Source: an uncultured Saccharospirillaceae bacterium
Lineage (GTDB): Bacteria > Bacteroidota > Bacteroidia > Flavobacteriales_D > CAJJDF01
DNA length: 64,000 bases
Reading direction: 5' to 3'
Assembly: GCA_950054195.1 (NCBI GenBank)
Contig: CATLPG010000004.1
Location: 1 to 64,000 of the forward strand
Shown piece by piece: positions 6,094 through 64,000 of this stretch. The first letter of the stretch is position 1. Each line of letters begins with the position of its first letter. The position numbers and the translations under genes were made by a program. The notes under the pieces were generated by a model. The model saw only the letters and a program-made list of their open reading frames with translations. It made no database searches and was not told the origin of the DNA.

Positions 6094-8853
6094 CTATTTC
6101 CCAGTTTTCTTTCTCAATAAAGTCACATGACCAATCTGAGTTATTCGCTCTTGATTGCTTATGGTTCTAGTAACTACTTTCCAAACATATACATCTTGCT
6201 TGGCTAATTTATCTTTATGCATACCATCCCATCCTTCGGCAACTTTATCGGTTTGAAAGATGAGGTCACCCCAACGATTAAACACATAAAACTTATAAAA
6301 ATCTTCATCTACACCAATCAAATTCGGAAAGAACTCATCATTAACACCATCTCCATTGGGCGTAAAAGAGTTTGGAGTATACACTTTATGCCCAACTGTT
6401 TCCACTTCTTTGCAAATACTATCCTGACATTGAGCTGTAACAAAAGCAGTTAAACAAATGGGATAAGTTCTTATTTCATTTGAAGGAAATAAATAATAAA
6501 AATCTGTTTTATTAGATACCGAAAAAGTATCAATATCCCATAAAATGGCATTTTCTCCTTGAGAGGTATTCACAAGATAAATACGAGAATCAAAGAGTTC
6601 AACTTTCGTAGGTGTAACTTCAAAATCAGCTACTGGCGGAGAAGTTACAGTCATATAACTTACCTTTGTTAAGGTATCTCTACAACCATGAATTGAGGAG
6701 ACTGCTAATGTTACATCATACGTCCCCAAGTTTGTATAACAGTGTAATGGATTGGTGTCGTTAGAAACTGCTCCATCACCAAAATCCCATGTTAAACTGC
6801 CTATTCCCCAAGGAATGTACGAGGTATTTGTAAACTGGGCACAAAGCGTATCACAACCAATATTATCTATTCCAATAAAATCAGCAGTAGGTAATTCGTA
6901 TACCTGAACCTGTCTAATTGTACTATCCAAACAACCATCAACAGAAGTTCCTACAAGTTTCACATCATAAAACCCTACATTTGGATATACATGTTGCGGG
7001 CTAGCTATGTTAGATGTATTTCCATCACCAAAATCCCATGAGTAATTAGTTAAAGTTGTAGACGAAGAAGCTAAAAAAGTAAACATATCTTCGGCACATA
7101 GACTATCAGAATTAAAATCTACGAGTACTTCGTTAATCGATATATCTCTGTTTATGGTGTGTATACATCCAAATTCATTTTCTACCGTTAAATTTATCTG
7201 ATAAATTCCTGCATTGTTATATGTGTGAGTAGGGTTTTGGACTCCATTTGCAGCTGCTCCATCTCCAAAGTTCCAAGTCCAATCAACCACAGTGGTATTT
7301 CCAATTGACACATCGGTAAAGTTTGTTACTTGATTTTTACAGAAATTAGCAACCTGAAAATTAGCTACAGGCACATCATTTATAGTTACTGTCATCGTAG
7401 TATCATCTACACACCCTTGATCAGAAGTAACCTCCAAGCTTACTTGATATGTTCCTGATGAGGTAAACATATGCTTAGGATGTCTTAAATTGCTCGTGTT
7501 AGCACCAGAGGTCGGATCTCCAAAATCCCAATTCCATGAAACTATATTTCCTATTGATATACTTGATAAATCTGTAAAAGATGTTGAATCTCCAAAGCAA
7601 ACCTCTGTGGTAACAAAGTTAGCTACTGGCTTATCCATTATAGATACATTTTGTTGGACAAAACTTACACAACCTGCTTCTGATTCTACATTTAGTGTAA
7701 CAATGTAAGTATTTGGTAATGTGTACGTATGAGAAGGATTAGGCTGATGAGAAGTATCTCCATCTCCAAAATTCCAAATTGTACTCGTAATGGGAATGGA
7801 ATCTCCTGTAGAAACATAATTCGCATACGAAGTAGATTGAAATTGTATTGGAGTTCCTAAACACTCTTGATTACTTGAAGTAAACTGAGCGACTGCTCTA
7901 GAAGTATTTAAAACTGTTGTTAATCGTGAAGAACATCCTCCTATCGTAATTAAATCTACCCAAACAGTATCTCCTTGGTTTGGATTACTTAATACAATTT
8001 CTCTGGTAGTTTGACCATTTTGCCAATTATAAGCAAATCCTGGAGGAGCGGTTAGTGTAGCAAAATTATCGCTTTCACAATATTCCACTTCAATGCCTAA
8101 AGAATCACATTGAGCATGGATATATCCATAACCAAAGTGCCCACACAACCCACAATCCATGGATTTAAATGATATAGTTACCTGATTATTCGGAGGGGCT
8201 AAATTTTGAAAAGGTCTTAAATCCACTCCAATAGTTGTCCATGGACGGTAATAAACAAATGTTTGATTTCCATTATTTGGACTGACTACATTACATCTTC
8301 TCAATCCTATATCTGCATCATTCGCCCACTCAACAATTTGACTACAAGCAGCTGGACCTATTAAATCACCATTCGCGTCAGTTATATCTATCAAAAAAGT
8401 AGGTCTTACTTCCTGTGCATGAGGAGGAAAACCACTATTAGGTGGAGAAGGCTCTTCTAGAACACATGAATATTCATAAATAAGAAAATTATTCTGAGGA
8501 GTTACAGTTACTGTATAGGAAACACTATCAACTTTACCTCCAACAGCAACATTACCAATTTGCGCAGCTGTTGTTCTACCTGGAGGAGTTCGTTCAAGCG
8601 TATTACAAGTCATCACATCAAATACTGGGTTAGCATCTACATGAACCGTTGTACGTGTATTGTCATTCGGATAAACAACACCATTTCCCACCCAAAAATG
8701 AGGATCATTACAAGTATTTTCTGGATGATTTTGTGCTGACACATCCCAATTAGAAAAATCTCCACTTTGAAATCCCATATTTTGGCATTGACTATTTCCT
8801 TCAATCAATAAGAAAGAAGAAAAAATCAATATTATGTATTTCAATTTTTTCAT
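6094..8853 (-). CDS. Giant PKD-domain adhesin with type B T9SS sorting domain
   Basis: The 919-residue exported protein has a signal peptide (residues 1-22, ending GNSQ) and an N-terminal Cys-rich region of unknown fold (about 25-320). Five clear PKD repeats follow, each carrying the WDFGDG or WNFGDG motif, and a sixth degenerate one lacks it. The C-terminus (about 835-919) is a gliding-motility-associated type B sorting domain with YTPNSFTPNGDGVNDEFFP, FNRWGDLIFQT and GWDG. Known relatives cross the outer membrane through the type IX system and are held on the cell surface. The role is probably adhesion. It lies 3 bases after the adjacent, similar gene, so the two form a tandem pair. Confidence 0.9.
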   Translation of the reverse strand: MKKLKYIILIFSSFLLIEGNSQCQNMGFQSGDFSNWDVSAQNHPENTCNDPHFWVGNGVVYPNDNTRTTVHVDANPVFDVMTCNTLERTPPGRTTAAQIGNVAVGGKVDSVSYTVTVTPQNNFLIYEYSCVLEEPSPPNSGFPPHAQEVRPTFLIDITDANGDLIGPAACSQIVEWANDADIGLRRCNVVSPNNGNQTFVYYRPWTTIGVDLRPFQNLAPPNNQVTISFKSMDCGLCGHFGYGYIHAQCDSLGIEVEYCESDNFATLTAPPGFAYNWQNGQTTREIVLSNPNQGDTVWVDLITIGGCSSRLTTVLNTSRAVAQFTSSNQECLGTPIQFQSTSYANYVSTGDSIPITSTIWNFGDGDTSHQPNPSHTYTLPNTYIVTLNVESEAGCVSFVQQNVSIMDKPVANFVTTEVCFGDSTSFTDLSSISIGNIVSWNWDFGDPTSGANTSNLRHPKHMFTSSGTYQVSLEVTSDQGCVDDTTMTVTINDVPVANFQVANFCKNQVTNFTDVSIGNTTVVDWTWNFGDGAAANGVQNPTHTYNNAGIYQINLTVENEFGCIHTINRDISINEVLVDFNSDSLCAEDMFTFLASSSTTLTNYSWDFGDGNTSNIASPQHVYPNVGFYDVKLVGTSVDGCLDSTIRQVQVYELPTADFIGIDNIGCDTLCAQFTNTSYIPWGIGSLTWDFGDGAVSNDTNPLHCYTNLGTYDVTLAVSSIHGCRDTLTKVSYMTVTSPPVADFEVTPTKVELFDSRIYLVNTSQGENAILWDIDTFSVSNKTDFYYLFPSNEIRTYPICLTAFVTAQCQDSICKEVETVGHKVYTPNSFTPNGDGVNDEFFPNLIGVDEDFYKFYVFNRWGDLIFQTDKVAEGWDGMHKDKLAKQDVYVWKVVTRTISNQERITQIGHVTLLRKKTGK

Positions 8854-25495: not shown

Positions 25496-28400
25496 TTATC
25501 TTACAATAACAACTTTACCCTTGATAGGATCATCACTGTCTAGAGATAATACATAATAATAAGTTCCTGATGGTAAATCTTTTCCTTGCCATTTTCCATC
25601 CCATTGCACAAAATTGTCAGAAGTTTCATAAACTTTAGTTCCCCATTTAGAGAAAATAATTAAATCCACAGATGAATAAGCACTTAAATCTAAATTCCAT
25701 GTATCATTATAATTATCTCCATTTGGTGAAAATGTGTTTACACGAACAACTCCATCTATTAAACATTGCTCAACAGTAATAGGTTTTGTAACCGAGTCTG
25801 TACAACCTGTAGAAGTATCCGTTAAATAATAAGTAATTGGATGATCACCATATCCAGCTAAAACAGGATCAAAAAAGCCTCCAGATACAGCAAAACCTAT
25901 ATATTGACCTCCTTCAGGAAATCCATTAACTAATTCAACTGGCTGAAGAATTCCGCAAAGCGTGTCAAAATCAAATAAAGCTACCTCTACACCTATTGTA
26001 TTAACCACAACAGGGTAACAATTTGAGGGTAAACACCCTCCTCCTTCTTTTCTTACATAATAGACAGTATTACCAGAAGGTGTAACAGTTATCGTATCAC
26101 TAGTTCCTATAAGTGAGTCTCCACAATCAAAACTATACCAATTCCATGTTTCTCCAGCTCGGAGTGTATCATTTACTACATATACTTGAGTCGAAGAATT
26201 TACACAAATGCTGTCAACTGTAACATCTGCACCATTAGGTAACCTATTGTTAGAGTCAATTTCAACAACTACAGGAATACATGGTGAAGGTGTACAGTTA
26301 CCTCCTTCTTTACGAACAAAATAAGTTGTTGTAGCTCCCGGTGATACGGATATTGTATCTCCAGTTCCAGTTGCAGTGGTTCCACAACCATCCGTATACC
26401 AAGCCCAGTTTTGTAATGTATCTAAGTTTCCTAATTGAACAAAAATTTCAGTATTAGTATTAGGGCATATTTCGTTTTCAGTAACATTTGCCAAGAATGG
26501 AGGTGTCAAAATTGTATCAATAGGCACAAAGATAGAAGCACAAATAGTTGGCGTACCACAAGTTCCACCTTCTGCTCTAACATATAATGTTGTATCTGTT
26601 AACATTTCAAGCGTAATGGTAGCTCCAGAATCAATTAAAGTACCTCCACAGGATCCTGAGTACCAATACCACTCATTATTTGGTCCTATTGAACCTCCAA
26701 CTACACTAAGATCAAGTGAATCACCAACACAAACAGTTGTTAAACTTTTCGATATTCCACTTGGTGGCTCAGGTGCTTGTGTACATATAAGCGTAAAGCC
26801 TTCAAATAAGAATCCATTAACATCTGTATCAAAACGACCAGTTGTATCGTATTGTGTTACTGCAGAAATAACACTATTAGCAGTTGATGGATTAGCTCTA
26901 GGTCCAAAATTCCAATTAGACACAGTAGATGTTGAATACGTCACATCGGTTAGTGCACATGTACCACCTGCTAATGTTATGCTAGGTTCAGCTCCAAAAT
27001 TATGTGTTATTTCAATATTTACTGGTGCAGTACCACCATCTATATATAAGGATGATGTATCACCATTAGCACCACTACCTCCTGTTCCACCGTTTCCACC
27101 GTTTCCACCGTTTCCACCGTTTCCACCATCACCAACTTCATCGTTATCTCCTCCTCCGTTACCAGACAGTCCGCAAGCGAAAGAACTAGCATTTCCGCCA
27201 CCTCCTCCGATGCCTCCGCTACCACCTGCACCTCCAGCCCCTCCTGTTCCACCAGCTCCACCGACTCCAAAACCTTTCGTAGAGAAATTACAGCTTTCAA
27301 AATAGGCATTGCCTCCATTGTTAAATAAATAAACAGCAAATGCACCACCTCCAGCGGTTCCACCTTTACCTCCTTCTCCACCTTGGCCTCCGCCTCCGCC
27401 TCCGCCTCCGCCAGCGCCTAGTCCTTCACCTCCAAAAACATCTCTACCTTGGCCTCCGCCTCCACCTCCTCCGGCTCCACCTTGGCCTCCTTGACCATCA
27501 ACTCCATCACCACCGGGTGTTCCAATTACATAAAAGCCTCCAACAAAGCTACCTGCTCCTCCAACAGTTCCAGCTGTTCCATTAGTCCCTGGCGCTCCAG
27601 CTTGTCCTGCACATCCTGGATATCCATCATCGTCATCACCAACTCCACCTCCCCCGATGCTAGTATTGAAGGGGCCTGAATTAACTCCACCACCTTGGCC
27701 TCCATCACCTCCAGTACCTATTCCACCACCACTAAATTCTTTTCCTCCAGAGCCTCCAGCTCCTCCACCACCTCCATCACGAAGTGTAGTTGATGTAGTA
27801 CCATCACCTCCAATTAAACCCATAGCATTACATCCAGGAGGAGCCAAGGTTTGTGCAGCTCCAGTAGCACCTCCTCCACCTTGGCCTCCTGCACCTCCTC
27901 TTCCATCAAAATCATTGCTACAATTATCATCATCATCTGCACTGTTACCATTACTTCCCGCAAACCCAATAGCTCCATTAGCACCATTAGCACCAGTTAT
28001 ACCATCAGAACCTTTACCTGCAACAACTACTGTACGAGTAAAATAGTAGTTATTACATGATGTTAAATGTAAACCATAGGTTGTAACTCCAGTTCCTGGA
28101 GCATCAGCAGTTTCAATCGATATATCTTGTAATCTAAAATTGGTAATTGTATTACCGTACATGGCTACCAATCGCTCTTGACCTACTGGTCCTTCTATGT
28201 TCATTGTATCCCTGTAAATTCTAGTTGCTCCAGAATCACTTACTTTATTCCAGCTATTTGCAGCTATGAAACCTCCTTCAATAGTAACACCATCTGGTAT
28301 ATTTATTGGGTTAGAAATATTGTAAACACCTGTGTCTAAGCGAAGGATATCTCCAGCGTTAGCATTAGTAATAGCAGTAGCTAAGTCGGTTGGTGATGAA

Positions 28401-32300: not shown

Positions 32301-32473
32301 CGACTTATTCTTGAGGTATAGAAATGCCCTTCCACATGAACTTACCCAACGGTAGTCAGGTGATTGGGAACAATTATTTATGTTGACTAATTGAAAATTC
32401 ATCTGAAAATAATAGTTAATTGTATACCTGTACTTATTCACAAATAGAAAAACCAATGATTAGGTTAGATTTA

Positions 32474-32506
32474 ACACACCCTTAAATCCCTCTCAAGAGG
32501 GAAATT
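32474..32506 (+). repeat. Dispersed palindromic repeat, copy A
   Basis: The sequence begins ACACACCC, continues through a variable T/A stretch, and contains the inverted repeat CCCTC-TCAA-GAGGG followed by AAATT. Two more copies occur in the window, at 32779-32831 and 60734-60766, in the same orientation. It looks like a short non-coding interspersed element. Confidence 0.75.
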
Positions 32507-32724: not shown

Positions 32725-32778
32725 TTAAATTTTAAATTCGTTCTTTTTGACAATTAAACATCAAAAACATGCTTTTTT

Positions 32779-32831
32779 ACACACCCCTAACCCCTCCTGT
32801 CTGACGATCAGGCAGGCTCAAGAGGGGAATT
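32779..32831 (+). repeat. Dispersed palindromic repeat, copy B, with a nested palindrome
   Basis: Copy B matches copies A and C at both ends (ACACACCCCTAACCCCTC ... TCAAGAGGGGAATT). Between its two arms it carries about 21 extra bases containing a second near-palindrome, CCTG-t-CTGA-cga-TCAG-g-CAGG. The simplest reading is that one repeat type was inserted into the loop side of another. Confidence 0.75.
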
Positions 32832-32964
32832 CAATCTTAATTACCTACTAACATGATTAGTTACAGGTAACATATATCTTATTTTACATTCAAAAATAAA
32901 TCATTCTTTCATACAGGGATAGATACAAGGAAGATAATTACATTTGCTCCTGAAAATTTTTGAT

Positions 32965-55894: not shown

Positions 55895-57154
55895 TTAAAT
55901 AAGTTTATTAAATACCTCTTCGCTTAGCAGTTCTCCCTTTTTAATTTCACCATTATGATTTAACACGTTTACAAAGCCTAGCTTACATTCACTTTCTATT
56001 TTTTGATATTCGTTTTGCAATTGGTGAATAGATTGATATTTATATTTCCCGAAAGTACTATCTTCTTGATCTACTTTTGGATATAGCAACAAACTTCTTT
56101 TCGCTTTCCAATGTAAGTTGTATGTAAACATTTGTTTTAAATCATTGTCAGAGGGGTTGTTTGATTGTACTATTTTCCACTTTGTATCGATTATAAATGT
56201 TTCGTTTTGAGGGTTTATTATAACAATATCTGGTCGGATGGTTTTATGTTTCCAAAAAACATCAGAGTTTTGAAATGAGACTGTATAGTTTTCTTTTTTG
56301 TGTTTGTTTAAAATTCTAAAAATATATTCTTCCCATAACATATTCATATCAAACAAAAGTGTTAGCATATTATCCTCTCCCGAACTTATATTAGACGAAT
56401 AATTAAGAATAAGCATTTTTGCAATATTTAAAGCTTGCTCGTAAGGCTTTGATTTTCTGTTTAGCTTTATCCTTTTAAAATGACTTTCTGTTATTTTTGT
56501 TTGTGCTACTCCATCAAATTGGAACAACAATCGGTTCACCCTGTCTGTTAGTTGCGAATTAGAAAGATTATCCAACACATTTAACCCTTGTAATAATACT
56601 TCGTGTATTAAATGGTTTTTATCGTACACTTGATGTTCACAATAAAAACGCTCTTTATGCACTATATTTTTTTGAATGTTTTGGCTAAATAACAACTTCC
56701 CTTTTAAAGCTAATTGGTTACTTTGTTTTTTTCGGTATTGCTTTATTAAACCTATTCTTACTAAATGCTCTATTTCGGTTAGATATAAAGTAAAATAGGC
56801 TTCTAAAATAGAATTATATCTTTTCTTTAATTGAGTTTCGGAAACGGTATCAATTTGTATCTTTTTACAAATACGTAACATTTCCAAAAGCACATTTTGC
56901 CATGTATCTTTTTCTATTTGTGAATCAAGGTTAACTCTATCTGCTTTAGGTAAAATTTCGATAGTTAAATCACCAATTTTTATAACACCTACATAACTAA
57001 TAAACTGAACACCATTATAGATGGGAGTAAAATATTTATTTCCGTGTTGCTCATTAAATTTCACCATGGTGTCTAAATGATTTTTTGTAAAACCATGCTC
57101 ACCAATTCGTAATTTTTGGTATTCGAAAACTTGTATGAGGTTGTTTATACTCAT
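55895..57154 (-). CDS. mcrC: McrC-family nuclease subunit of a McrBC restriction system
   Basis: A 419-residue protein. The N-terminal part (FEYQKLRIGEHGF, YVGVIKIGDLTIEILPKA) is the McrC beta-rich domain that touches the McrB ring. The C-terminal half is a PD-(D/E)xK nuclease with IRPDIVIINPQNETFIIDTKWK (the Asp and the D-x-K pair) near 315-335. Known McrBC cleaves modified DNA after GTP-driven translocation. It follows mcrB by 5 bases. The nuclease residues look intact. Confidence 0.88.
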   Translation of the reverse strand: MSINNLIQVFEYQKLRIGEHGFTKNHLDTMVKFNEQHGNKYFTPIYNGVQFISYVGVIKIGDLTIEILPKADRVNLDSQIEKDTWQNVLLEMLRICKKIQIDTVSETQLKKRYNSILEAYFTLYLTEIEHLVRIGLIKQYRKKQSNQLALKGKLLFSQNIQKNIVHKERFYCEHQVYDKNHLIHEVLLQGLNVLDNLSNSQLTDRVNRLLFQFDGVAQTKITESHFKRIKLNRKSKPYEQALNIAKMLILNYSSNISSGEDNMLTLLFDMNMLWEEYIFRILNKHKKENYTVSFQNSDVFWKHKTIRPDIVIINPQNETFIIDTKWKIVQSNNPSDNDLKQMFTYNLHWKAKRSLLLYPKVDQEDSTFGKYKYQSIHQLQNEYQKIESECKLGFVNVLNHNGEIKKGELLSEEVFNKLI

Positions 57155-57159
57155 CTATG

Positions 57160-59604
57160 TTATTCCATTATTTCGTATATCGATTTAAAATCAGCAACTG
57201 ACATATTGCCAATGTCTTTTAACTTAAAAATCTTCTTATCAGTAATGAAGTCTACATCCGAATAGGCTTTAAAAGAAGCTAAAACATTTTTGTTTTGTGT
57301 TGACTTTTCTGCTATAAAACTTTCCCCTAATACTAAGCCAATTTTACCATAATCACCATAAAAATACTCTTCGAGCAATGGGATTATTTTATCTTGAAAT
57401 ACAAGTTTTAAATCATCCAGTGATTTAACCGTGAAAAAGTAAGAATGTCCTATTTGATGGTCTTTATCAATAAGTAATTCTATTCTTTGGTTAATGGTAT
57501 CCAGTAATTGCTCTAAATTAACTTCTTTATAATCTAAATTATTAAGTAATGAAGGTTTGGGCAATAGTTCTTCAAAAGAAAATCTTCTTCTTAAGGCTGT
57601 ATCTAATGCCTCTACACTTCTATCGGCTGTGTTCATTGTACCAATTATGTATACGTTATTGGGTACAGAGAAAGGTAATTTTGAATACGGAAGGGTAAGG
57701 TTGATTTCTTCTTTAGATCCTTTCCTTTTGTCATCTTCAATGAGGGTAATAAGTTCTCCAAAAATAGCCGATACGTTTCCTCTGTTTATTTCATCAATTA
57801 TTAATACATAATTACCTACATCTTGTTTATTATTTGATGGTTTATTAGAAAATTTTTCTTCAAAAACCTCCAGTTTAACATCTTCATCTGCAAACTTATA
57901 GATAGTTTGTTGTGAAACGTTTTTATCAATAAAAATTTTAGGGGAAGTATTTAAGTTTGTAGCCAACCATTTTACTTTCCTGAAATGATTAAATGGTATT
58001 TCTTTATTTTCATCAAATTCGTAGTCTCCATCAATTATTCCTATGGCATCAACGATGCTATTTCCTAAAGTAGCAACAACAACATCCCCTTTTTGCATCC
58101 ACTGTTGAAAACAATAAACTGCTTGTTTGTTGTATGCTGAATCAGCATCTAAATCAGGGAAATTTTTAATAAACTCTTCTTTAAACTTATCCCAGTGGTT
58201 GTAATTTGACAATATTGAATAATTATTATTACCTCCCCAACCTAACGCGATATAATTATTAGCAATGCACCAATTATGAATATCTTTCCTATGTTTTCCT
58301 CCCAAACTCATTTTAAAGAATGATTTAGTAGAAAAATCAATTTGTTCATTAATAGAGTCTATTTTAGCAATTTGCTGTGCCGAAGTACAAATTGATTTAA
58401 ATATACCGTCTTGTACTGAGTAAACTACCTCGTCATTTTCGTTTGTTTCAGGCTTTATACCTTCCACAAAATCTTCATAACTCATACTTTGATGAAAAGT
58501 TGTAAAGCATACTTTTTCTTTATTAACTAAATCATCATAAAGGGTTAATATCTCATCTCTAGTTCTTTCTTTTTTTCCTAACACGATATTAACTGCTAGT
58601 TCTTTGGTTTTGTATGTTTTTCCTGTTCCTGGAGGTCCGTATAATATTTGGTTTAGTTTCATTTTCAAGTCATTATTTATTTCGTTAGGATTTTCCAAAG
58701 AATCATTTATTATGCCCCATAACTCATGTGAGAATTGGAAAAAATCCTTACTTCCTATCTGAGTGATCACGTAGTTATTTAGAGTAGAATGGCTTTTTTC
58801 TATACCTGTATATCCAAGGTAATCGGCACAGTCTAGTAAAGATTCGTATTTAAAAATATTTATAACGTTATAATTTGAATACAAAAAGGCAATTTTCCAT
58901 TTATAAGCATTACCAATGTCTATCTCGTCAATAGCTTTAAGGTTATTTTCCTTTGCTAATTTTGCTATGTCAATTATGATGCTTCTTACGTTTTCGAATG
59001 CTTCATTTGTAGAATTTCCATATTTTTTAAACCAGGCGTAATCTCCATCAGATAACCTGTTCCCTGTACTTCCAGTGTTACTGGTTTCACTTCTCTTGTA
59101 GATCCCAAATTTATATGAGCTACCACCTTTAATACTTCCTAAAGGAGCTGTAATATGTTCAACCCAATAACAAAAAGAGTTTTTATCTAAATTGGTATAA
59201 TCATCAATGGTCATTTGATGAAGTTTTTCGATAGACCATTTTTTTAAAAACTCATCTTTTAATTGATATAGTTCGTTAAACATCTTGCTTTCAACTATCA
59301 ACTCTTCTGTTTTCTTAAGTAAATAATAGGGTTCTCTATCGTTGTTTGGGATTATTTTTTCAGGTGTAGCTCCCTCAATTATTGTTTGCCCTACATGTTT
59401 TCTCCAATCATAGCCAGTTCCATAATTGTTTTTTCCTTCTGGATCTAACTCAAATAATACGCCTTTACCAAAAAAGCTGTGAGTATGAAACACTTTTTGA
59501 ATGTTGGTATCTACACGTAACATGGGTTGTTTCCATCCCATTACATCTAGCTCTTGCTGATTCATGTGCCGAGCTTTTATTATTTTAATTTCATCACCCT
59601 TCAT
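57160..59604 (-). CDS. mcrB: McrB-family AAA+ GTPase with an EVE-like domain insertion
   Basis: An 814-residue protein. Residues 1-315 form one or more N-terminal domains, probably for target recognition (GKGVLFELDPEGKNNYGTGYD, FGIYKRS, KWKIAFLY); I do not recognise them firmly. Walker A GPPGTGKT is at 323-330, FTTFHQSMSYEDFVEGIKP near 370 is typical of the family, Walker B LIIDEINRG is near 602 and the McrB signature MNTADRS near 655, followed by LDTALRRRFSF. Between Walker A and B, residues about 428-530 (FFKMSLGGKHRK, ALGWGGNNNY, KGDVVVATLGN, AIGIIDGDYEF) resemble an EVE/YTH-like modified-base reader. The gene overlaps the 134-residue ORF by 11 bases and precedes mcrC by 5. Confidence 0.88.
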   Translation of the reverse strand: MKGDEIKIIKARHMNQQELDVMGWKQPMLRVDTNIQKVFHTHSFFGKGVLFELDPEGKNNYGTGYDWRKHVGQTIIEGATPEKIIPNNDREPYYLLKKTEELIVESKMFNELYQLKDEFLKKWSIEKLHQMTIDDYTNLDKNSFCYWVEHITAPLGSIKGGSSYKFGIYKRSETSNTGSTGNRLSDGDYAWFKKYGNSTNEAFENVRSIIIDIAKLAKENNLKAIDEIDIGNAYKWKIAFLYSNYNVINIFKYESLLDCADYLGYTGIEKSHSTLNNYVITQIGSKDFFQFSHELWGIINDSLENPNEINNDLKMKLNQILYGPPGTGKTYKTKELAVNIVLGKKERTRDEILTLYDDLVNKEKVCFTTFHQSMSYEDFVEGIKPETNENDEVVYSVQDGIFKSICTSAQQIAKIDSINEQIDFSTKSFFKMSLGGKHRKDIHNWCIANNYIALGWGGNNNYSILSNYNHWDKFKEEFIKNFPDLDADSAYNKQAVYCFQQWMQKGDVVVATLGNSIVDAIGIIDGDYEFDENKEIPFNHFRKVKWLATNLNTSPKIFIDKNVSQQTIYKFADEDVKLEVFEEKFSNKPSNNKQDVGNYVLIIDEINRGNVSAIFGELITLIEDDKRKGSKEEINLTLPYSKLPFSVPNNVYIIGTMNTADRSVEALDTALRRRFSFEELLPKPSLLNNLDYKEVNLEQLLDTINQRIELLIDKDHQIGHSYFFTVKSLDDLKLVFQDKIIPLLEEYFYGDYGKIGLVLGESFIAEKSTQNKNVLASFKAYSDVDFITDKKIFKLKDIGNMSVADFKSIYEIME

Positions 59605-60041: not shown

Positions 60042-61328
60042 CTAACTCCTCCTTTTGTACTCCACTACATCCTCAGCAACTTTGGCTAATTCTTGTTGGG
60101 CTTGTTTTACGGATACCTGCCCATTCATTAACATGGGTAATAACCAATCTCTGAGTTCGGAGAGTTTTTGGTTTTGTTTAGAGTTTTTAACAACTAAGTC
60201 TAAAATTGGACTAATTTTCTTATCAATTTGATTGCATAAATCTATTGGAGGTATTGCGATTCTACTTTGTGTTAAATGATCTTTAGTAATATGTCCCATT
60301 GTTGTTTTTCTTAAATCTGCAATCATTTTAAAATGTTGTAAGTAATTAAGAAGCTCAAAATAATAGTAAGATTTAGGATATTTATCAGAGGTAACTTTAA
60401 ATATATGCTGATTAAGCCCTCCATTGCCTCCAGACCAAATCATTACTTCTAATGATGCCGACCAAGAGAACAAAACATCCCCATTATATACTTTTACTTT
60501 TTCTGGTATATCAGAAGTTACTTTTTCAGTTTTTTCTGTAAATCCATCTCGCATTTCCTTAATCTTGATAACTGGAAGGAAATTTTCATCTGTTGGTCTA
60601 TATTTTTGACAAGCTAAACCATTTTGAAAGTTAGCTATATCAAATAAATTTCCAACTTCCCACCCCTCAGGAATTTCTCTTTTTAGTTCTTTGTTGTAAA
60701 CCATTTTGCCTCCAGAGCTTTTATAAGGTTTTAACACACCCCCAGCCCCTCTCGAGAGGGGAGTGTTGGTAGAGGGAAAATCAAACTGGACAAACCAATA
60801 ATCGTAAAGCGTTTTTGCCATGGCTTCTAACTCGGCATTTATTTTATTGTTTACCTCAATTTTGGCATCTAAATCGGAGAGGACTTTGGCTATTGCTTTT
60901 TGAGTAGGTAAACTGAAACTAGGAATTGGAAATTGTAGGATTTGATTTTTGTCTCCTCTAGGCATTTTTGTCCCTTTGGAACCATTCATCATATGTTCAA
61001 AAAACTCATCTCGGAACATTGAATAATAGATAAATTCAGAATCATATCCAGCTTTTACCTTAAAGGTTAAAACATCAGAAGAGCTTCCTCCAGAATATTT
61101 AGCAAACCAAATTTTTTTTAAATAGGGTCGAATATTACCAACCAAAATATCTCCTTTATCAAAACCAGTTACAGAATTAGAAGACTGTTTAGGCATTTTT
61201 TCCGCATCAACTTTACCTTGTTTGTTTTGAAGAAGATTGTCCGTAGTTATGTAGTTTTCTACAGAAATCTCATCTAATAAAGCTCTTGATTTGGAATAAG
61301 ATACTGCATCTTTTAGTTTCTTATCCAT
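60042..61328 (-). CDS. hsdS: Type I restriction-modification specificity subunit
   Basis: A 428-residue protein with the two-target-domain layout. TRD1 covers about 1-135, the first conserved helix SLPTQKAIAKVLSDLDAKIEVNNKIN spans about 140-165, TRD2 about 225-365, and a second helix set ends LRDWLLPMLMNGQVSV. It chooses the DNA sequence methylated by HsdM (and cut by HsdR if present). Between FDFP and KPYKSSGGKM, about residues 187-199 (TPLSRGAGGVL) are encoded by a dispersed palindromic repeat that keeps the frame, placing an extra linker next to TRD2. It lies 158 bases after hsdM. Confidence 0.9.
   Translation of the reverse strand: MDKKLKDAVSYSKSRALLDEISVENYITTDNLLQNKQGKVDAEKMPKQSSNSVTGFDKGDILVGNIRPYLKKIWFAKYSGGSSSDVLTFKVKAGYDSEFIYYSMFRDEFFEHMMNGSKGTKMPRGDKNQILQFPIPSFSLPTQKAIAKVLSDLDAKIEVNNKINAELEAMAKTLYDYWFVQFDFPSTNTPLSRGAGGVLKPYKSSGGKMVYNKELKREIPEGWEVGNLFDIANFQNGLACQKYRPTDENFLPVIKIKEMRDGFTEKTEKVTSDIPEKVKVYNGDVLFSWSASLEVMIWSGGNGGLNQHIFKVTSDKYPKSYYYFELLNYLQHFKMIADLRKTTMGHITKDHLTQSRIAIPPIDLCNQIDKKISPILDLVVKNSKQNQKLSELRDWLLPMLMNGQVSVKQAQQELAKVAEDVVEYKRRS
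60734..60766 (+). repeat. Dispersed palindromic repeat, copy C, inside hsdS
   Basis: ACACACCCCCAGCCCC-TCTCGAGA-GGGGAGTGTT matches copies A and B in the flanks and the CCCCTC/GAGGGG arms. On the coding (minus) strand it is read as TPLSRGAGGVL and keeps the hsdS frame. Confidence 0.8.
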
Positions 61329-61366
61329 AATTCAAACTATTTAAATTTCCTTTAATCTCCTTATGC

Positions 61367-61480
61367 AATCCTAAAAGGATTATACACTTATAAATAGGAC
61401 TTAACAAAGAGGTGTACGACCCTGAAAGGGTCTTACTTTCTACGAACTGACTGTTATTAATATTTGAACCCTTTGGGTTC
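61367..61480. repeat. Three 6-3-6 hairpins between hsdM and hsdS
   Basis: AATCCT-AAA-AGGATT (61367-61381), GACCCT-GAA-AGGGTC (61418-61432) and GAACCC-TTT-GGGTTC (61466-61480). Each is a perfect inverted repeat with six-base arms and a three-base loop. Starts are 51 and 48 bases apart. They fill most of the hsdM-hsdS gap. They could be a small repeat family, or hairpins that adjust hsdS expression. Confidence 0.7.
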
Positions 61481-61486
61481 CTTCTG

Positions 61487-63112
61487 TTACTCATACTTCA
61501 AAGACTTTAAATTCTCTTTAATTTCCTTCTCCAAACTTTTAGATTCCCCAAACAAACTCTCTAAACTCGTTTCAAAACCTTTCATTTTAGTTGCAAACTC
61601 CTCTTGGGTAATATCTACATATTCAATCTTTACTTCAAAATATTGTCCTGCACTTAGGCTGTAGTTTTTGGCTTTAATATCTTCATAAGAAACTACTACT
61701 GAGAAATCGTCTTTGGCTTCTTTAGCATTAAATACATCAATAATTTGTTGTTCTTCGGTATCCGATAAAAGCGTTTTTTGGTTCTTGCCTTCTTTTACTT
61801 TTGTGCCTAAATTAGAGGCATCAATTAATACCACATCTCCCTTATTGGCAGCATCTAAAAACAAAATACTTACGTTAGTTCCTGTGGTTGCAAAAATGTT
61901 ACTCGGCATGCTTACTACACCTGCTAACATTTTGCTTTCTACCATTTTTTGTCTAATTTTTTTATCAATTCCACTCTGTGCGGTTATAAAACCAGTGGGC
62001 ACTACAATGGCTGCTTTCCCTTTGGCACTTAAACTGTGCATAATGTGCTGGATAAACAACAAGTAAATCGCCATAGAATCTTTCTTGGTTTTTGGAATTT
62101 TTGGTATGCCTGCAAAAAAGCGTTCTTCGTTGGCCTTGGTATCTAAATCGGCACTGTAATCGCTAAAATCTAACTTAAAAGGTGGGTTAGATACTATGTA
62201 ATCAAATTTTTCTAATTGTCCATTTTCTTGTTTGTGATACGGGTGCTGGATTGTATTTCCTTGTATGATGTTTTGGATAGAATGTACGAGATTGTTCAAA
62301 ATTAAATTCAAACGCAACAAACTAGACGACTTTTGGGAAATATCTTGTGAGTAAATAGTACACTTATCTTCTCCAATGGCGTGTGCTAAGTTCATTAACA
62401 AGGTTCCAGAGCCTGCACTTGGGTCGTAACAGGTTACGTTTTGTACATTTTTTTCGGTTACCAGACAAGCTGCCATAATTTTTGCTACTGCATGTGGGGT
62501 AAAATATTCGGCATATTTTCCTCCACTGTCTTTGTTGTAATCTGAAATTAGGTATTCAAAAATAGTAGCATAAAAATCGTATTTCTCGCTAAAAATACGC
62601 TCAAAGCTAAAGCTAATCAATTTATTTACAATGGCTTTACAAAAGGCATCTCGTTTGGAGTCGCTAACAAATTCGCTTAAACGATTAAATAGAATTACTT
62701 TTGCTCCTCCATCTTCTTTTACCGAGAAAATATCGGTGTTGTTCATTGCTATACCAATTAAGGTATCATCAAACAGTTTAGCAAAATTAGGTTCATCTTG
62801 TTTGTGGTACAAAGTTGTTATAAAATGTTCGGGTTGCAACATGGCGGTTCCTTCGCTTACTTGCATAAGCAACATTTCGTACTGTGCGCTTGGATAGTTG
62901 CTTAATGTTTTTTGCCAATCGTTATCGGTAGCTAAAGCAGGCTCTATTTGCTTTACCTCATAGGCAAATTTATCATTAAGGAACTTGTATAAGAACACTT
63001 GGGTAATGATTTTAAATTCATTCCCATCATTTCCTAATCCGTAATTAGCACACACGCTTTTTAATTCGTCTATGAGGTGTTTTACTTTTGATTCAAAATC
63101 TTTTGATGTCAT
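61487..63112 (-). CDS. hsdM: Type I restriction-modification DNA methyltransferase subunit
   Basis: A 541-residue adenine-N6 methyltransferase. The N-terminal helical domain (DELKSVCANYGLGNDGNEFKII) is typical of HsdM. Motif I DPSAGSGTLLMNL lies near 228-240 and motif IV NPPF near 305 (VSNPPFKLDFSDY). IPKIPKTKKDSMAIYLLFIQHIM and AIVVPTGFITAQSGIDKKIR follow. The C-terminal helices (FETSLESLFGESKSLEKEIKENL) contact HsdS. The ATG shares one base with the stop of the upstream RhuM gene (TAATG). Confidence 0.93.
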   Translation of the reverse strand: MTSKDFESKVKHLIDELKSVCANYGLGNDGNEFKIITQVFLYKFLNDKFAYEVKQIEPALATDNDWQKTLSNYPSAQYEMLLMQVSEGTAMLQPEHFITTLYHKQDEPNFAKLFDDTLIGIAMNNTDIFSVKEDGGAKVILFNRLSEFVSDSKRDAFCKAIVNKLISFSFERIFSEKYDFYATIFEYLISDYNKDSGGKYAEYFTPHAVAKIMAACLVTEKNVQNVTCYDPSAGSGTLLMNLAHAIGEDKCTIYSQDISQKSSSLLRLNLILNNLVHSIQNIIQGNTIQHPYHKQENGQLEKFDYIVSNPPFKLDFSDYSADLDTKANEERFFAGIPKIPKTKKDSMAIYLLFIQHIMHSLSAKGKAAIVVPTGFITAQSGIDKKIRQKMVESKMLAGVVSMPSNIFATTGTNVSILFLDAANKGDVVLIDASNLGTKVKEGKNQKTLLSDTEEQQIIDVFNAKEAKDDFSVVVSYEDIKAKNYSLSAGQYFEVKIEYVDITQEEFATKMKGFETSLESLFGESKSLEKEIKENLKSLKYE

Positions 63113-64000
63113 TATTTTTTCTTAATTTTTTTTAATTGATTATCAATGTGTTTTATAAAGTCTTCTTCTATCTTAGACAATTCATTTGCCTGTTGATCTT
63201 TGTAATTATTGTATTCGGTATGTGCTTTATCTAATGCTTGCTTGTGGCTTATTTTTCCAGCATTATTTAAAATATCATTCCCTGTCATTTTTAGAAAATC
63301 ATCTAATCGCACTATCCAGTCTTTCATGTACATAGGTTTACGATTAAGCGCCTGTAGTTCGGCAATCTCTAAATAAGCAGTAACTATTCGGTTTAATACC
63401 TCTAACTCATCTTTGTCTAAATAGTTTTTAGCTACTTCCGTTTCTTTTTTTGTCGGTTTATTCCCTTTAAAAGCCATTAATCCTAGATTTGGTTTATTGG
63501 CATTAACTCTTTTGTAGATGATTTCTGCAGCCGTATGTCCATGCACAGCCCAGTGCATTTTATTTTGAATCGTTTTAAAGAAAAGAATAGATTCTTCAGC
63601 TTTACCATCATAATCAATACTTGTAGCATAAATGTCTAATACCTTTCTCCAAAATACTTTTTCAGAAGAGCGTATGTCACGAATACGTGCTAACAACTCA
63701 TCAAAGTAGTTACCTCCACCTGCTTCTTTAAGCAGGTCATCATTCATGGTAAAGCCTTTTACAATATACTCACGTAAACGAGCAGTTGCCCATTGTCTAA
63801 ATTTAGTACCTTGAAGACTTTTTACACGATAACCTACCGAAATGATTACATCTAGGTTATAGAAATTAGTGTCATATTGTTTCCCATCAGAAGCAGTTGT
63901 TCGGAAATTCCGAACAACTGAATTTTCATCCAACTCTCCTTCTTCGAAAATATTTTTAATATGCTCGCTAATGGTAGATTTTGCTTTACCAAAAAGATCT
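63112..64000 (-). CDS. RhuM-family protein, 5' end beyond the window
   Basis: The reading frame continues past the right edge, so the start is missing; the TTG at 63933 is internal. Visible motifs are KAKSTISEHIKNIFEEGELDENSVVRNF, FYNLDVIISVGYRVKSLQGTKFRQWATARLREYI, and VHGHTAAEIIYKRV. The RhuM family is common beside type I restriction genes. The N-terminal part resembles a KilA/Bro-type DNA-binding domain. Function is not established; a regulator of restriction genes is plausible. hsdR is not in the window and would lie further right if present. Confidence 0.85.
   Translation of the reverse strand, partial: DLFGKAKSTISEHIKNIFEEGELDENSVVRNFRTTASDGKQYDTNFYNLDVIISVGYRVKSLQGTKFRQWATARLREYIVKGFTMNDDLLKEAGGGNYFDELLARIRDIRSSEKVFWRKVLDIYATSIDYDGKAEESILFFKTIQNKMHWAVHGHTAAEIIYKRVNANKPNLGLMAFKGNKPTKKETEVAKNYLDKDELEVLNRIVTAYLEIAELQALNRKPMYMKDWIVRLDDFLKMTGNDILNNAGKISHKQALDKAHTEYNNYKDQQANELSKIEEDFIKHIDNQLKKIKKK

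Follow-up and report, generated by a model that had tools for sequence, protein, structure and literature searches.

The window, i.e., the whole 64,000-nt stretch of DNA analyzed, ends in a type I restriction-modification operon on the reverse strand, which is complete and comprises hsdS, hsdM, a rhuM-family gene and hsdR (Table 1). PF01420 matches HsdS in two stretches, both TRDs are present together with CR1 and CR2, and the model fold matches the solved S subunits 1yf2, 5ybb and 3okg. With its Methylase_S domains, its TRD1-CR1-TRD2-CR2 fold and its hsdM and hsdR partners, the protein belongs to the HsdS subunits of type I systems. Just before hsdS, the 3′ end of hsdM is partly copied in a 48-bp direct repeat (77%; window positions 61321-61368 and 61487-61534), and short palindromes, e.g., GACCCTGAAAGGGTC (61418-61432), are situated between both copies. 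This arrangement is a trace of recombination or of another repeat insertion. The type I system (60042-64000) is followed directly downstream by a McrBC-like pair, consisting of a McrBC-family protein and an AAA protein, which is encoded at 55895-59604. As both systems adjoin, they form a small defense island.

Table 1. Features of the hsdS region, copies of its repeat, and loci with related insertions.
Feature	Location	Strand	Remarks
hsdS, type I restriction-modification specificity subunit	60042..61328	(-)	428-aa ORF, Methylase_S E=1.2e-23
In-frame palindromic repeat in hsdS	60732..60764	(-)	33 nt, encodes TPLSRGAGGVL
Perfect palindrome CCCCTCTCGAGAGGGG	60746..60761		core of the hsdS repeat
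CR1 spacer helix	60786..60911	(-)	42 residues (140-181) in the AlphaFold2 model; upstream of and separate from the insert
hsdM	61487..63112	(-)	same operon as hsdS
rhuM-family gene	63112..64000	(-)	between hsdM and hsdR
hsdR-like ORF	~G000:C4:64101-67175		full-length, 1024 aa; same genome, just beyond the window
Diverged copy of the hsdS repeat family	~32472..32505	(-)	intergenic
Copy of the hsdS repeat family	~32776..32832	(-)	intergenic; second, different palindrome CTGTCTGACGATCAGGCAGGC nested in the apex
hsdS linker insert CTCTCCTTCGGGGAGGGCTGGGGTGGGG	L095, L104, L107, L118, L124
hsdS linker insert CCCCCCAACCCCCGAAGGGGGAG	L103, L125		relatives in L122, L116
hsdS linker insert GTCACTTCGAGCGGAGTCGA	L082, L096
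hsdS linker insert CCTTCGACTTCGCTCAGGGCAAGCC	L090, L094, L100, L101, L102, L109, L115, L121, L123, L128		FDFAQGKP type, largest group; looks repeat-derived
hsdS linker insert CCCCTACTTCGGAGGGG	L084
hsdS linker insert, one further kind	L114
DUF559 in frame in LeuS	L013, L131, L133, L144, L190
DUF559 in frame in MetH	L132, L184
DUF559 in frame in IleS	L145, L186
DUF559 in frame in Acs, RecJ, RecG, PurL, HsdR	L150, L160, L193, L191, L135, respectively

Within hsdS, codons 189-199 (ACT CCC CTC TCG AGA GGG GCT GGG GGT GTG TTA) form a palindromic repeat that is translated in frame. The palindrome is perfect and has 8-bp arms, CCCCTCTC/GAGAGGGG. No RNA family was found in this region with Rfam. A stretch of 31 nt (60733-60763) is identical to positions 8777-8807 of another contig, C13, of the same genome (G000). 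Based on composition, approximately 5e-15 exact copies of this 31-mer are expected, and chance is thereby excluded. A second copy on C13 (9182-9214) is 97% identical, and weaker copies are present on contigs C28 and C56. The family is nevertheless low-copy, with about eight copies seen in this genome by BLAST and pattern searches. A pattern match at 27229 was rejected as a copy, being an unrelated, repetitive cct/cca-rich stretch without a palindrome. Neither the exact repeat nor a 17-mer taken from it occurs in 198 other genomes of the order, and a pattern of the repeat with the adjoining KPYKSSGG motif gave no other match among 84,980 species genomes. The first-pass annotation had described a dispersed palindromic repeat inserted in frame in hsdS, placing it two bases away (60734-60766), and had called it the same repeat as one elsewhere in the window. 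The insertion itself is confirmed by the exact copy on C13 and by its absence from relatives, and the surrounding gene appears intact. The statement on the same repeat elsewhere in the window is correct as well, two diverged, intergenic copies being present there. Since an insert-free version of this allele is not known, neither a target-site duplication nor a precise empty site can be defined.

The two copies on C13 are direct repeats, approximately 405 bp apart, and enclose a DUF559 gene. The encoded protein counts 137 aa (PF04480, E=8.9e-33), and the repeat itself encodes its C-terminal residues, THPQPLSRGE. The AlphaFold2 model (pLDDT 91) has as its top Foldseek matches 3hrl, a putative endonuclease, and 3r3p (31-33% identity), the catalytic domain of the homing endonuclease I-Bth0305I, followed by E. 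coli Vsr (1vsr). A profile search with the DUF559 alignment likewise retrieves 3r3p, annotated as 'Mobile intron protein' (E=3.5e-6). The repeat-bounded gene is thus predicted to encode a nuclease of the Vsr-like EDxHD fold, and DUF559 has been assigned to the EDxHD family before (PMC9403480). In Caulobacter, DNA damage has been attributed to a DUF559 protein (PMC12907096). Residues W33, D58, E69, D71, D84 and R100 are invariant in the alignment, E69 and D71 belonging to the active site, and the lineage that is embedded in other genes retains its active-site residues.

The association between DUF559 and palindromes extends beyond this genome. Palindromes with a stem of at least 7 are present in 76 of the 116 flanks adjoining DUF559, vs. 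17 of 116 control flanks at 1 kb distance, in a set of 58 loci that takes in related loci. Stem lengths also differ between both sets of flanks (paired Wilcoxon, p=8e-9), and a sequence of at least 11 nt is common to both flanks at 27 of these loci vs. four controls (p=1.6e-5). Judged from these sequences, framing by GC-rich palindromes is a feature of DUF559 domains throughout the class. At many loci, DUF559 is moreover found in frame inside LeuS (two sites), IleS, MetH (two sites), Acs, RecJ, RecG, PurL and HsdR, with one example per host gene checked with Pfam. These host genes are conserved and often essential, and the embedded domain has repeat-encoded peptides on both sides. In the DUF559 tree, of which some deep branches are weakly supported, the embedded forms cluster separately from almost all standalone ones, and 13 changes of host gene are required; well-supported branches unite LeuS, Acs and RecJ, and LeuS and Acs. 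The DUF559 on C13 is of the standalone type, outside the embedded clade. According to the tree, one nuclease lineage, present in frame in at least eight unrelated conserved genes, has repeatedly moved from one host gene to another over evolution. One LeuS site is empty in the genome of the window, filled in a genome of the same genus (G005) and occupied by a repeat-type insert without nuclease in one of the same family (G001).

Two known types of insertion were considered for the embedded domains. An intein was rejected, as no Hint splicing domain was detected in the eight filled proteins, where matches are confined to host domains, DUF559 and MTES_1575, a related nuclease model. A group I or group II intron was rejected as well: both junctions are in frame, no group I match was obtained, and the lone group II match is not around DUF559. 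This match, to a group II intron domain (RF00029, 68 bits), is located at L132:3113-3187, the far end of a metH locus, approximately 1.3 kb from the DUF559 insertion.

We consider it probable, at roughly 0.55, that the repeat in hsdS represents a solo end of an element composed of a DUF559 nuclease gene between two palindromes, which tolerates in-frame coding insertion without splicing. DUF559 would act like an EDxHD homing endonuclease and break element-free DNA, after which repair of the break would copy the element in. Solo ends may be products of mobilization in trans, or of recombination across the two direct end repeats. A copy within a gene would persist only if its peptide is in frame, free of stops and situated in a surface loop that tolerates it, and the host protein would then carry the repeat peptide unspliced, with its function little affected. 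In the genomes concerned, the repeat families of hsdS linkers lie beside DUF559 in six cases, vs. 0.03 expected. Three genomes with hsdS inserts (G781, G787, and G794) have no DUF559 match, and mobilization there would have come from something lost or different.

An origin as an ordinary REP or MITE, dependent on a REP-associated tyrosine transposase (RAYT) for its movement and only incidentally associated with DUF559, is unlikely. ORFs with internal REPs have been described, and mobilization of REPs is generally ascribed to RAYTs (PMC3733652); in addition, Y1 transposase genes are present in many of the genomes with hsdS inserts. However, the genome of the window, a 118-contig draft, contains just a stop-ridden Y1 fragment and one sub-cutoff match, and no Y1 transposase is present in the same-genus genome or in G780. 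The hsdS copy and its 31-nt match carry neither the GTAG nor the CGTC tag that marks one end of a REP, and the repeat flanks DUF559 rather than a Y1 gene. A cognate RAYT, the second hallmark of a REPtron, was not found in this draft. Alternatively, some unrelated enzyme could mobilize the palindromes, and DUF559 would be a passenger.

At the site of the insert in hsdS, canonical relatives read WFVQFDFP-(D/N)xxG-KPYKSSGGKM, and in comparison with their FDFP-xxxG-KPYKSSGG the window insert represents a net gain of 10 aa. The short linker type is found in 28 of approximately 39 intact hsdS linkers sampled from the order and class. A scan of the whole collection for gaps of 19-49 nt yielded 54 further genes with longer linkers. 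All of these are in frame, with gaps of 22-49 nt that are 1 mod 3 in every case and translations that continue into the conserved motif. Translational bypass of the palindrome, which does not require such a frame, was rejected on this ground (54 of 54 in frame). The inserts are of several kinds (Table 1), and the sequences of many of them recur within the same genomes. Linkers of the gammaproteobacterial DDSPQGQG type are not palindromic and were left out of the repeat counts. In one hsdS gene (L039, genome G309; ORF of 593 aa), a GIY-YIG nuclease domain with palindromic borders is present in frame at the same linker (E=4.8e-13). Together, the several repeat kinds and the GIY-YIG nuclease identify the linker as a repeated landing place. 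Hosts of the FDFAQGKP-type linker include Nitrosomonas, Methylomonas, Geobacter and others, a distribution that suggests that hsdS alleles cross phyla together with their inserts.

The insert might have formed in another, repeat-rich species and have reached this genome along with an hsdS allele that was acquired horizontally or by recombination, without any movement in this genome. The mosaic nature of hsdS alleles would fit such a history, as TRD1 and TRD2 of the window match different partners; so would the presence of the repeat in other contigs, and the partial hsdM copy in front of hsdS points to past recombination. Nevertheless, this origin is doubtful: the 31-nt identity with C13 and the absence of the 17-mer from the 198 genomes of the order suggest a local or recent origin, and the repeat is present in no other hsdS of the species collection.

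Regarding the effect of the insert on the protein, the AlphaFold2 model of HsdS (pLDDT 82; pTM 0.52, so that the domain arrangement is uncertain) places residues 189-199 in a loop of residues 185-204, nearly all with pLDDT below 50, while TRD2 starts at residue 209. According to this model, the insert forms a disordered loop that belongs neither to the spacer helix nor to either recognition domain. Seven S proteins with a TRD2 that is 59-67% identical to that of the window have seven other linker sequences, and related S proteins naturally carry linkers of many lengths at this point. One of these seven (L122) additionally shares TRD1, at 55% identity, and has a different repeat in its linker. 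The insert is thus tolerated.

In S subunits of the EcoR124I type, spacer length is changed via the conserved helical region. In both that type and the window hsdS, a short insertion lengthens the coding sequence between TRD1 and TRD2; in EcoR124I the helical region itself is changed, whereas in the window the insert is situated in the loop after the helix. Located between CR1 and TRD2 and adding 10 aa, the insert might alter type I specificity through a greater distance between the two recognition domains, but this is very improbable in view of its predicted position in a disordered loop that follows the spacer helix, the variable linker length of related S proteins and the combination of the same TRD2 with seven other linkers. 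Site spacing of type I enzymes is measured by conserved helical regions (PMC12707154), and no change in spacing is consequently expected. Of the first-pass reading, the tolerated coding repeat therefore stands, while the proposed lengthening of the spacer that sets site spacing is not supported; the reading had also missed the repeats at the ends of a nuclease gene and the repeated invasion of the linker. That TPLSRGAGGVL is an old functional part of the S protein merely resembling the repeat, as the open frame and apparently intact gene might allow, can practically be dismissed, as 31 nt of its DNA are identical to a copy that is not part of an hsdS gene and none of the other hsdS linkers read has these residues. 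The check proposed with the first-pass annotation, conservation of the residues in hsdS of genomes that lack the repeat family, therefore does not refute the insertion.

More broadly, and with somewhat less than even chances, Bacteroidota and their neighbors may harbor a large undescribed class of selfish elements: palindrome-bounded homing-type nucleases (DUF559/EDxHD, and also GIY-YIG) that would inhabit essential genes in frame without splicing, by means of stop-free palindromic linkers and tolerant loops, leaving behind solo palindromes such as the one in the window hsdS. On its own, the hsdS insert is a modest case of coding selfish DNA, and the link to DUF559 matters more. It would supply a nuclease to palindromic repeats without a known mover, and homing-type nucleases would gain a further mode of residence in essential genes, in frame and without splicing. 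The LeuS site, with filled, solo and empty alleles in close relatives, makes the model directly testable. For annotators, 'linkers' of 10-20 aa (TPLSRGAGG, SPSPLERAGVG, FDFAQGKP) can be repeat-encoded rather than functional.

Each component is already known on its own: palindromes that are translated (RPE), REPs within genes, and homing nucleases of the EDxHD family. In the open-access literature, no paper was found that links DUF559 to such palindromes, nor one on the combination of the components, a nuclease element that is bounded by palindromes, sits in frame, does not splice and leaves solo remnants; this is a lead and does not prove novelty. Rickettsia palindromic elements (RPE) are in-frame, translated palindromic repeats in unrelated protein genes (Ogata et al., 2000, 2002; PMC10969869). 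Like the hsdS repeat, they place a palindrome in frame in a protein gene and have copies elsewhere, which is a likeness of behavior. RPE measure approximately 150 bp and are described without a linked nuclease, whereas the hsdS repeat measures approximately 33 nt and its copies additionally bound a nuclease gene at both ends. GTAG/CGTC REPs and REPtrons (a REP with its RAYT) are palindromes of 20-40 bp, occurring solo or flanking a gene and sometimes in ORFs (PMC3733652). They resemble the hsdS repeats in these respects, and also in that different REPs are sometimes present at about one site (PMC3733652). Unlike a REPtron, the hsdS repeat lacks the GTAG/CGTC tag and bounds a DUF559 nuclease instead of a Y1 transposase, of which the genome has no intact copy. 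I-Bth0305I (PDB 3r3p) and the bounded DUF559 share the nuclease fold, sequence similarity and insertion into conserved genes. I-Bth0305I is, however, a mobile-intron protein, while the DUF559 copies are in frame and have palindromic ends, with no intron or intein found. Finally, inteins with a homing endonuclease also carry a nuclease domain in frame in essential genes, but the DUF559 inserts have no Hint/splicing module and are flanked by repeat-encoded peptides.
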